NCBI GenBank assembly: GCA_947451045.1
Contig: CANFXM010000007.1
Location: 1 to 38,870 of the forward strand
Direction of reading: 5' to 3'
Source of the DNA: Actinomycetota bacterium
GTDB lineage: Bacteria; Actinomycetota; Actinomycetes; Nanopelagicales; Nanopelagicaceae
DNA: 38,870 nt
In this document: positions 200 to 2,465 of the stretch, one piece after another
How the letters are laid out: each line of letters begins with the position of its first letter
Numbering within the stretch: the first letter of the stretch is position 1
The notes under the pieces: model-generated
The model's database searches: none
The model's input: the letters and a program-made list of their open reading frames with translations, nothing else
What the model was told of the DNA's origin: nothing
Translations under genes and position numbers: made by a program

Positions 200-229
200 G
201 TAGTGCCTTCCTGTTTTTTCTTACATGTC

Positions 230-285
230 TCCCGGGACAGGGAAGCGCTCAGGGTAACGGTGAACAGAAGGTGAACACAACTCAA
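230..285 (-). promoter_or_regulatory. Promoter region of the livK-type gene with an 11-bp-spaced direct repeat (PHO-box-like)
   Basis: Two exact GGTGAACA copies lie at 259-266 and 270-277 on the plus strand. Read in the direction of livK they are GTTCACC units with an 11-base period. This matches the described Streptomyces PhoP box (11-nt direct repeats with a GTTCACC core). A possible -10 (TACCCT) lies just downstream and a weak -35 (TTGTGT) overlaps the repeat. Nearer the start codon, at 226-239, is an imperfect palindrome (TGTC, spacer, GACA around TCCCGGGA). The repeat is directly visible; that it binds PhoP is inference. Confidence 0.5.
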
Positions 286-338
286 ACTCACGCTCAGATT
301 GTTTCTCTTTCGTTATATTTGCATGAAATTTTTGCCTC

Positions 339-359
339 AAAGGGGCTCGCGTGCCCTTT
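339..359 (-). terminator. Hairpin overlapping the pdtaR stop codon, possible U-less terminator
   Basis: AAAGGG and CCCTTT arms pair with a short loop; a further C-G pair forms if one base bulges. In the pdtaR direction, two bases of the TAA stop codon form part of the first arm. An A/T-rich stretch follows but no clear U-run. It may end the gltB-to-pdtaR transcript or protect its 3' end. Actinobacteria often use hairpins without U-tails, but no sequence feature proves termination here. Confidence 0.4.
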
Positions 360-939
360 ATTTATCTGGAACGGCATCCGGGTTCAGGACGGCGTTGGCG
401 ACCTCTTTCATGGTCAATCGCCGATCCATTGCCGCCCGTTGAATCCATGAAAAAGCTTGGGGCTCAGAGAGATTGAGTGCGCTCATCAAAATGCCTTTTG
501 CCTTATCAATAATTTTGCGAGTTTCAAGGCGATCGTGTAAATCTGCGACCTCTTGGGCAAGTAAACGCATTTGAGAATGTCGGCTAATTGCAATTTCGAT
601 TGCCGGAACTAAATCGCCAATACTAAATGGTTTCACAACATATGCCATAACTCCGGCATCGCGAGCACGTTCTATAAGTTCGCGTTGACTAAATGCTGTC
701 AACATTAGAACTGGCGCAAAGCTAATTATTTTTTCTGCAGCAGATATTCCATCGAGTACTGGCATCGCTACATCAAGAATCGCTAAATCTGGTTTGTGTA
801 ACTGCGCTAATTCAATTGCTTCGACACCATTGGTGGCTTGAGCAACTACCTCATAACCCGCTTCAATGAGCATCTCAACTAAATCCATACGGATGAGCGC
901 TTCATCTTCAGCGACCAAAATGCGAGTGGTAGATGTCAT
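358..939 (-). CDS. pdtaR: ANTAR-domain response regulator (PdtaR-like transcription antiterminator)
   Basis: 193 residues. A receiver domain fills residues 5-120, with the acidic pair E11/D12, phospho-acceptor D56 (LAILD-VAMP), T81 and K103 (YVVKPFS). A coiled linker follows, then an ANTAR RNA-binding domain at about 130-185 (ETRKIIDKAKGILM, then AFSWIQRAAMDRRLTM). Phosphorylated ANTAR regulators bind paired hairpins in nascent mRNA and prevent termination. The closest known relative by motif is mycobacterial PdtaR (Rv1626), which is phosphorylated by the kinase PdtaS; no such kinase is in this window. The ATG lies one base after the 3' end of a tRNA gene, so there is no room for a normal leader; the only G-rich stretch upstream is the tRNA acceptor strand. 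The family's usual N terminus supports this start. It is probably transcribed with the tRNA and pyk. Confidence 0.9.
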   Translation of the reverse strand: MTSTTRILVAEDEALIRMDLVEMLIEAGYEVVAQATNGVEAIELAQLHKPDLAILDVAMPVLDGISAAEKIISFAPVLMLTAFSQRELIERARDAGVMAYVVKPFSIGDLVPAIEIAISRHSQMRLLAQEVADLHDRLETRKIIDKAKGILMSALNLSEPQAFSWIQRAAMDRRLTMKEVANAVLNPDAVPDK

Positions 940-940
940 G

Positions 941-1013
941 TGCCCCGAGTCGGATTCGAACCGACACTATGCAGTGTTTGAGACTGCCCTCTCTACCGTT
1001 GGAGTACCGAGGC
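941..1013 (-). tRNA. tRNA-Leu (anticodon CAA) with a short variable loop
   Basis: The reverse strand folds into a full cloverleaf of 73 bases: 7-bp acceptor stem GCCTCGG/TCGGGGC (two G-U pairs), discriminator A, D-stem CTC/GAG with a C-A mismatch at 13-22, anticodon stem GCAGT/ACTGC with loop CTCAAAC (anticodon CAA, reading UUG), five-base variable loop ATAGT, and T-arm GTCGG/CCGAC with loop TTCGAAT. CCA is not encoded. Bacterial tRNA-Leu normally has a long variable arm, so this class-I shape is unusual, although I recall similar short tRNA-Leu genes at this position in other Actinobacteria. It sits 12 bases after the pyk stop and 1 base before the pdtaR ATG, so it is probably part of the same transcript. 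Confidence 0.88.
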
Positions 1014-1025
1014 GCAGTGAGAATT

Positions 1026-2465
1026 CTACCTGTATGCCGGTACTACTCCGCCAACTGCATCACCCACGCGATGTACGCGCATCGCATTAGTTGAGCCAGG
1101 AATTCCTGGTGGAGATCCAGCAACAATCATCACATTATCGCCAATGACAGCGCGAGCCGAATCAATGAGTAGGTGGTCGGCCTGTTTCACCATTTCATCT
1201 GTATGACTAACCAAAGGTGTGATCATTGGTTCAATCCCCCATGAAAGAGCAAGTCGGTTGTAAGTGCCTCGATCTGGAGTAAGTGCCAAAATCGGAATTG
1301 GTGAACGCAAACGCGACATGCGTCGAGCTGAGTCACCGCTTTGAGTAAAAGTAACAAGGAATTTAGCACCAACAATGAGTCCAACTTCTGTTGCTGCTTT
1401 TGTTATTGCACCACCTTTAGTCTTTGGCGCAGTTCTCATGGGACGAATCATGCTAAATCCGCCCTCTTCCGTACGTTCAATTATTCGAGCCATAGTTTGA
1501 ACTGATTCGATGGCAAAATCACCGACACTGGTCTCTCCTGAGAGCATGAGTGCATCTGCTCCATCAAGAACCGCGTTCGCACAATCTGTTGCTTCGGCGC
1601 GAGTTGGGCGTGAATTAGTAATCATTGAATCAAGCATTTGTGTAGCAACGATGACTGGCTTTGCCGCTTCACGAGCAAGTTCAATGCAGTGCTTTTGCAC
1701 CAGCGGTACATCTTCGATTGGAAGTTCTACGCCCAGATCACCGCGGGCCACCATGATGCCGTCAAAGGCATCGACAATTCCTTGGAGATTTTCAACGGCT
1801 TGTGGCTTCTCAATTTTCGCAATGACAGGAACACGGATACCCACTTCATCCATGATTCGATGCACATCCACAATATCGGCTGCACTTCGCACAAATGAAA
1901 GTGCGATGAAATCAGCACCGGCTCGAAGTCCCCATCGAAGATCATCCATATCTTTCTCCGATAAAGCTGGAACAGAAACAGCGACGCCTGGAAGATTTAT
2001 GCCTTTGTTATTACTTACGGCGCCTGGCTCGATGACTTTAGTAATTACATCATTACCTTTTACTTCAATAACTTCTACCGTAACTTTTCCATCATCGATA
2101 AGAATTCGATCCCCTGGTTTGCAATCGCCCGGAAGGCCTTTATATGTTGTTCCTACGCGATCTTTTGTTCCTTCAATCTCATCGGTCGTAATTGTAAAAA
2201 TGTCACCACGAGCTAAATCGTGTGGACCAGCTTTAAATCTGGCCAAGCGAATCTTTGGTCCTTGAAGATCAACAAGAATTGCAACTGGTTGACCTGCTTG
2301 AGCAGCAGCGGCTCGAACGAGATCTAATCTTTTTTGATGCTCATCGTATCCACCATGAGAAAGGTTTAAGCGCGCCATATTCATACCAGCAGCAATCAAC
2401 TCACGAACTTTCTCTGGAGATTCAACTGCAGGACCCATTGTGCAAACTATTTTGGCGCGGCGCAT
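1026..2465 (-). CDS. pyk: Pyruvate kinase
   Basis: 479 residues, the usual size. It catalyses phosphoenolpyruvate + ADP to pyruvate + ATP, the last step of glycolysis, in the cytoplasm. The N terminus (RRAKIVCTMGPA), the substrate/Mg loop around MNMARLNLSHG, the MVARGDLGVELP motif and the ATQMLDSM helix are all present. Residue 71 lies in GPKIR and is lysine where potassium-dependent enzymes have glutamate (GPEIR). From published work on this position I infer a potassium-independent enzyme. The C-terminal regulatory domain is complete. The ATG has AAGG about 8 bases upstream and lies 17 bases after gltD, with no room for a separate promoter, which suggests gltB-gltD-pyk are one transcript. 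Confidence 0.97.
   Translation of the reverse strand: MRRAKIVCTMGPAVESPEKVRELIAAGMNMARLNLSHGGYDEHQKRLDLVRAAAAQAGQPVAILVDLQGPKIRLARFKAGPHDLARGDIFTITTDEIEGTKDRVGTTYKGLPGDCKPGDRILIDDGKVTVEVIEVKGNDVITKVIEPGAVSNNKGINLPGVAVSVPALSEKDMDDLRWGLRAGADFIALSFVRSAADIVDVHRIMDEVGIRVPVIAKIEKPQAVENLQGIVDAFDGIMVARGDLGVELPIEDVPLVQKHCIELAREAAKPVIVATQMLDSMITNSRPTRAEATDCANAVLDGADALMLSGETSVGDFAIESVQTMARIIERTEEGGFSMIRPMRTAPKTKGGAITKAATEVGLIVGAKFLVTFTQSGDSARRMSRLRSPIPILALTPDRGTYNRLALSWGIEPMITPLVSHTDEMVKQADHLLIDSARAVIGDNVMIVAGSPPGIPGSTNAMRVHRVGDAVGGVVPAYR

Follow-up and report, generated by a model that had tools for sequence, protein, structure and literature searches.

Transfer RNA punctuation as the probable source of predicted leaderless pdtaR messages in the bacterial order Nanopelagicales

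How a protein-coding gene is expressed when its start codon practically abuts a transfer RNA (tRNA) gene is the question raised by a locus in a 38,870-nucleotide (nt) stretch of DNA (hereafter, the window) from an actinobacterium of the family Nanopelagicaceae, order Nanopelagicales, a freshwater lineage with small genomes (assembly GCA_947451045.1, contig CANFXM010000007.1, positions 1 to 38,870). On the minus strand, the pyk gene is followed, after 12 bases, by a tRNA-Leu gene with the anticodon CAA, a single C and the ATG of a pdtaR-like gene (Table 1). Genome comparison suggests that this is probably a bacterial case of tRNA punctuation, in which processing of the tRNA 3' end would itself produce a leaderless pdtaR messenger RNA (mRNA). 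The version of tRNA punctuation known from animal mitochondria was reportedly described by Ojala, Montoya and Attardi in 1981.

The anatomy of the locus is as anticipated in the initial annotation, which had placed the tRNA discriminator at 941 and the start of pdtaR at 939, with pyk ending 12 bases before the tRNA, no leader for pdtaR and no encoded CCA; to this we add that the first C of the CCA is encoded, at 940, and is the only nucleotide between the tRNA and the ATG (939-937). The tRNA is called at 940-1013 by ARAGORN and at 941-1013 by Rfam (RF00005, 52.1 bits). The PdtaR protein has a receiver domain followed by an ANTAR domain (Pfam PF00072 at 1.6e-24 and PF03861 at 1.9e-22, respectively).

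The junction is widely conserved. A search of genome contigs with the PdtaR protein yielded 80 loci, in all of which ARAGORN detects a CAA tRNA upstream of pdtaR; at 52 of these, L031-L081, assigned to Nanopelagicales by record titles and identity, and L083 from a divergent metagenome-assembled genome (MAG) at 65%, the tRNA is on the pdtaR strand. At 42 of the 52 same-strand loci, the ATG or GTG start codon directly abuts the tRNA, separated from it by exactly one C, and at the other 10, the best start lies 28-64 nt downstream, with Shine-Dalgarno-like pairing in the leaders. Long, variable spacers, which the initial annotation, in proposing a comparison across related genomes, had named as speaking against its model, do therefore occur, but the leaders that fill them pair with the anti-Shine-Dalgarno (anti-SD) sequence, which fits two alternative modes of expression, and most of the junctions are fused. 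The exact fused pattern with the GTTCG... tRNA end is present in at least 122 of the 296 genomes of the order, a lower bound because the frequent GTTCA variant escapes it; when at most one mismatch is allowed, the tRNA end by itself is found in 263 of the 296.

To study the exceptions, 40 regions were fetched from genomes of the order that lack the exact fused pattern; of the 34 that were readable, 13 proved leadered and 21 were fused at a tRNA end that departs from the pattern, and six had no readable junction (L177-L181, where the tRNA is inverted, and L206, at a contig end). Together with the window and the 52 same-strand loci, the readable regions form a set of 87 loci that is deliberately enriched for exceptions; its 77 distinct junctions divide into 56 fused and 21 leadered ones. 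The fused junctions read CATG in 48 cases, CGTG in eight and CTTG in none, with 4 to 22 codons between the start and the first conserved motif. At one locus (L044), CATG is kept at the junction but belongs to a short frame that ends before pdtaR. The best-supported starts of the leadered junctions lie 12-66 nt downstream of the tRNA, and their pairing with the anti-SD sequence ranges from -2.6 to -11.1 kcal/mol (-5.4 kcal/mol or better in 17 of the 21). None of the 77 distinct junctions has its best-supported start at offsets 2-11. In the leaders of L032 and L033, 6-10 consecutive T and then GGGGG come directly after the tRNA.

In a tree of 76 proteins with these junctions (including 20 of the 21 leadered ones, one being too short) and five outgroups, fused and leadered states switch 6-7 times, at least four times on well supported branches, with the bootstrap not settled. 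Six loci from records titled Bifidobacterium breve MAG (L034, L039, L040, L047, L050 and L081) fall within the order in this tree, and the record names look wrong; a genome of a different genus (L208, G004) carries, on a short contig, a second tRNA end, and the pdtaR of this contig clusters with the genus of the window, possibly through contamination of that MAG. At L177-L181, which represent two other genera with five fetched genomes in all, the sequence after the tRNA looks by eye like the reverse complement of the pyk end, from which we take the tRNA to be inverted, and in 22 of the 28 loci of other actinomycetes, the tRNA is on the strand opposite to pdtaR. This distribution outside the group of the window suggests that the same-strand arrangement may be derived.

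The same junction recurs at other genes. In the genome of the window and that of Candidatus Planktophila lacus (P. lacus), 5 of the 78 tRNAs are followed at offset 1 by an ATG or GTG start of an open reading frame (ORF) of at least 100 codons; offsets 2-16 after the same tRNAs hold one such start, and that ORF has another start at offset 27. We then searched 13 near-complete genomes of the order, 11 of them already known to have the pdtaR junction, for a T-arm followed by C-RTG (that is, C and then ATG or GTG) and obtained 45 matches, compared with 14 for a reversed control. All 45 were read, and ARAGORN identified 34 as tRNAs with C-RTG, of which 32 are followed by ORFs of at least 79 amino acids (aa), in 10 tRNA-gene pairings; the remaining two precede ORFs of 23 and 7 aa, as expected by chance. 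The abutting genes encode PdtaR (13 genomes, a rate biased by the choice of genomes, the 19 other junctions being unselected), leucyl-tRNA synthetase (leuS, 4), an Orn-like exonuclease (4), a short-chain dehydrogenase (3), cyclophilin (2), a protein of 79 aa that matches no Pfam family (2) and, once each, an EamA transporter, a homocysteine S-methyltransferase, an Sbt_1 transporter and a CDP-alcohol phosphatidyltransferase. The names come from Pfam matches of one representative each, with one dehydrogenase named by NCBIfam; the exonuclease, which has an RNase_T match, is presumably Orn-like.

When the pattern was made one base longer, the same 13 genomes yielded 21 matches and no long ORF; four of these were tRNAs (longest ORF, 37 aa) and two were ends resembling transfer-messenger RNA (tmRNA), with ORFs of 3 and 57 aa. 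Related genomes are not independent, and the counts are given without a p-value, but with 32 long-ORF junctions at offset 1 and none at the next offset, chance was rejected as the source of the junctions. The presence of the same architecture at about ten genes of the order points to a general mode of expression rather than to one reserved for pdtaR. For other families of the class, most of the listed matches that were read have no tRNA: among these 28 new loci, there were three fitting tRNAs, one with a long ORF (428 aa), so that the arrangement looks rarer there. In another actinobacterial family, at L302 (G306), a tmRNA is followed by C-ATG and an ORF of two codons, a chance-like case.

The C that separates the tRNA from the start codon, position 74 of the tRNA, is encoded in every tRNA gene sampled. 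This holds for 39 of 39 genes in the genome of the window, 15 of which have CCA, for 40 of 40 in P. lacus, where 12 do, and for all 28 of the tRNA-Leu(CAA) genes from other actinomycetes, eight of them with CCA. At the loci from the 13-genome searches, the count is 44 of 44, CCA being present in 7, but this set was chosen by pattern and is hence partly circular. Position 75 is mixed in those tRNA genes of the window genome and P. lacus that lack CCA. Infernal finds 41 matches in the window genome, compared with 39 distinct tRNA genes with readable 3' flanks found by ARAGORN, which makes an ARAGORN bias towards C unlikely; one truncated tRNA-Ser (L119) was left unplaced.

Which enzyme would make the cut, and whether a cut is needed at all, can be weighed against these observations. 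The initial annotation had proposed an RNase Z-type cleavage after base 941; this position, just after the discriminator, is the textbook site of RNase Z, and cleavage there would release CAUG, but the RNase Z family TIGR02651 has no match over the cut-off in any of 101 near-complete genomes of the order, nor in that of the window, compared with 9 of 14 controls, a much diverged RNase Z being possible. Weak partial matches in 86 of the 101 genomes are mostly to frames of ~720-810 or 560 aa; in the window genome, these are ComEC, RNase J and a glyoxalase II-like enzyme, and the best small-protein match, a 248-aa frame in one genome, is closer to other metallo-beta-lactamase families than to RNase Z. 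The RNase Z proposal thus appears highly improbable. Neither was the claim of little promoter room between pyk and the tRNA upheld: 75 of the 77 junctions have a TANNNT box 12-46 nt ahead of the tRNA (500 single-base shuffles: mean 38, maximum 48), in the window over the pyk stop codon, so there is room for a promoter. The tRNA probably has a promoter of its own that it would share with pdtaR, and no terminator-like site was found on the minus strand in 200..1200. Transcription could also start directly at the pdtaR ATG if the tRNA gene itself contained a promoter, and leaderless transcripts made by direct initiation are indeed common in actinobacteria, reaching 24% of the Mycobacterium smegmatis transcripts according to PMC6448022; however, at none of the 32 junctions examined does a TANNNT begin 16-11 bases before the start codon, and such a start is very unlikely.

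A different explanation is that only genome packing is involved: a deletion would have placed the gene beside the tRNA, and the ribosome would start on uncut RNA, with the acceptor strand (CGAGG or CGGGG) of the unfolded tRNA serving as the Shine-Dalgarno sequence. The initial annotation had already pointed to this G-rich strand as the only alternative ribosome site, and the pairing at pdtaR is real: the acceptor tail, with its G-rich site 3 nt before the ATG, pairs with the anti-SD sequence at -5.3 kcal/mol in 45 and -4.5 kcal/mol in 11 of the 56 fused junctions, and the better GAGG form is present in 45 of the 56 fused compared with 4 of the 21 leadered junctions. However, the spacing is short and the site is inside the tRNA stem; moreover, GAGG is simply what the tRNA base pair U4-A69 produces, and phylogeny may explain where it occurs. 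At the 19 fused junctions with other tRNAs, where sites ending at least 3 nt before the start were considered, the pairing is only +1.3 to -3.1 kcal/mol (+0.3 for leuS after tRNA-Ala), which makes a Shine-Dalgarno role unlikely as the common mechanism; as such, it was rejected, and packing alone is, on the whole, an unlikely explanation. The true start could also be a downstream in-frame codon, with the junction ATG incidental, given that at least one more in-frame start codon lies ahead of the first conserved motif in 9 of the 56 distinct fused junctions, but in the other 47, the junction codon is the sole possible start, and in all 56, it is ATG or GTG, never TTG; we regard this possibility as extremely remote.

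Several observations weigh against tRNA punctuation. Tight packing alone could place a gene beside a tRNA, and the acceptor strand at pdtaR, at -4.5 to -5.3 kcal/mol, is about equal to some of the leaders. The 10 leadered loci among the 52 show that the arrangement is not essential for pdtaR, and intermediate spacings may occur, given that an additional in-frame start codon close to the tRNA is present at three of the leadered junctions (L043 at offset 8, L081 at offset 10 and L205 at offset 5). Upstream of the window tRNA, a strict scan for sigma-70 promoters yields no -35/-10 pair, and the minimum-energy fold of a 131-nt stretch with the pyk end, which includes bases upstream of the proposed transcript start, is not a cloverleaf. 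RNase Z, the textbook enzyme for such a cut, has no match over the cut-off in the 101 genomes; furthermore, work on mycobacterial leaderless mRNAs indicates that RTG is required at the very 5' end, whereas a C left on the mRNA would give CAUG. Finally, searches of the open-access literature turned up neither transcripts nor mapped 5' ends nor protein data for this order.

Despite these points, tRNA punctuation remains the reading that we favor, with an enzyme other than RNase Z. RNase E is encoded in the genome of the window (503.7 bits), and the junction offers it a C. Presumably, its ...RNAVLY... is at the position of Phe67 of the Escherichia coli enzyme. This would be compatible with mycobacterial RNase E, which, in PMC10641625, is reported to have Val in place of Phe67 and to cut immediately 5' of cytidines. 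Cuts at tRNA 3' ends are mapped between the Cs of CCA both in Propionibacterium acnes, described as having no obvious RNase Z (PMC3848588), and in Streptomyces coelicolor, which has an RNase Z homologue (PMC4681348); Mycobacterium tuberculosis is also said to possess RNase Z (PMC10673834), so that the absence of RNase Z matches in Nanopelagicales is not a trait of all actinobacteria. The proposed cut would be consistent with RNase E or with the enzyme responsible for these cuts within CCA in other actinobacteria.

The proposed sequence of events is as follows. The tRNA and pdtaR would form one short transcription unit, starting from the TANNNT promoter at the pyk end. RNase P would trim the 5' end of the tRNA, and an endonuclease, probably not RNase Z, would cut next to C74, either between A73 and C74, in the manner of mycobacterial RNase E, or on its other side, before A75, which corresponds to the site mapped inside CCA for P. 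acnes and S. coelicolor and would make the mRNA begin exactly with AUG. The downstream product would be a 5'-monophosphate pdtaR mRNA starting with CAUG or AUG, and its translation would follow the leaderless mode widespread among actinobacteria. The core of the initial annotation, that tRNA 3' cleavage yields a leaderless mRNA, is thus strengthened because the junction is conserved, repeated at other genes and two-state, although RNase Z and the missing promoter room had to be given up; its suggestion that PdtaR output depends on tRNA maturation would apply only if the processing model holds.

Table 1. Features of the tRNA-pdtaR locus in the window
Feature	Position	Strand	Remarks
tRNA gene, anticodon CAA	941..1013	-	73 nt, class I, 5-nt variable loop, discriminator A at 941; ARAGORN, Rfam, cloverleaf
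Lone encoded C (position 74), gap between discriminator and start codon	940	-	Proposed cut on either side
pdtaR-like gene, ATG 939-937, no leader outside the tRNA	358..939	-	ORF of 193 aa; junction conserved
TAGAAT, -10-like (TANNNT) box proposed for the tRNA-pdtaR unit	1023..1028	-	Its TAG is the pyk stop codon
Spacer between pyk and tRNA, 12 nt	1014..1025	-	
pyk (pyruvate kinase), upstream neighbor of the tRNA, same strand	1026..2465	-	

The tRNA itself is unusual in its short variable loop, compared with the other tRNA-Leu genes of the same genome (GAG, 87 nt; TAG, 84 nt). At the pdtaR locus, tRNA-Leu(CAA) belongs to class I in this order and in 14 of the 28 loci of other actinomycetes (L085, L091-L094, L096, L098, L099, L102-L104, L106, L107 and L109), which represent Mycobacterium, Kineococcus, Pseudonocardiaceae, Demequina and Serinibacter, and to class II in the other 14; the tRNA-Leu(TAA) of P. 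lacus is also 73 nt long. A short-loop tRNA-Leu(TAG) is mentioned for a mycobacterial tRNA cluster, and no work on the recognition of class I tRNA-Leu by leucyl-tRNA synthetase was found in the open-access literature. On contig C46 of the window genome (L116, 1-301), ARAGORN predicts a tRNA-like gene with a 4-base anticodon (gacg) that is near in sequence to the odd second tRNA-Val(GAC) of L115.

The similarity to mitochondrial tRNA punctuation lies in start codons that abut tRNA genes, so that tRNA excision would give leaderless mRNAs. The differences are that this is a free-living bacterium, with few such genes per genome and likely a promoter for each unit, and that the mitochondrial punctuation enzyme, RNase Z, was not found over the cut-off in this order. 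The predicted mRNAs also resemble the leaderless mRNAs of mycobacteria, P. acnes and S. coelicolor, which have ATG or GTG no more than a few bases from the 5' end and need no Shine-Dalgarno sequence, but in the cited actinobacterial work, these ends are mapped transcription starts, whereas tRNA processing would generate the 5' end proposed here and leave a monophosphate on it. The cuts within CCA in P. acnes and S. coelicolor are likewise endonucleolytic and next to C74, in P. acnes also without an obvious RNase Z, but the sections consulted do not describe the downstream piece as an mRNA, whereas here a start codon is located at the proposed cut. Leaderless mRNAs made by MazF in E. coli (PMC3848588) similarly depend on an endonuclease acting after transcription, but MazF is a stress toxin that leaves 5'-hydroxyl ends, unlike tRNA maturation, for which 5'-phosphate ends are expected. 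No prior report of tRNA punctuation in bacteria or of leaderless mRNAs in this order was found in the open-access literature.

Judging from the genome comparisons, the chances appear evenly balanced that a whole free-living order uses tRNA punctuation generally, with a nuclease other than RNase Z cutting at C74 and making leaderless mRNAs of about ten genes, leuS, the Orn-like exonuclease and pdtaR among them, and thereby tying protein output to tRNA synthesis and maturation. If so, the mitochondrial principle of forming mRNA 5' ends by tRNA excision would extend to free-living bacteria, and it would suggest how very compact genomes drop leaders. The question of the tRNA 3' nuclease in actinobacteria where RNase Z is missing would become testable, and leucyl-tRNA synthetase and similar proteins would be physically coupled to the output of tRNA.
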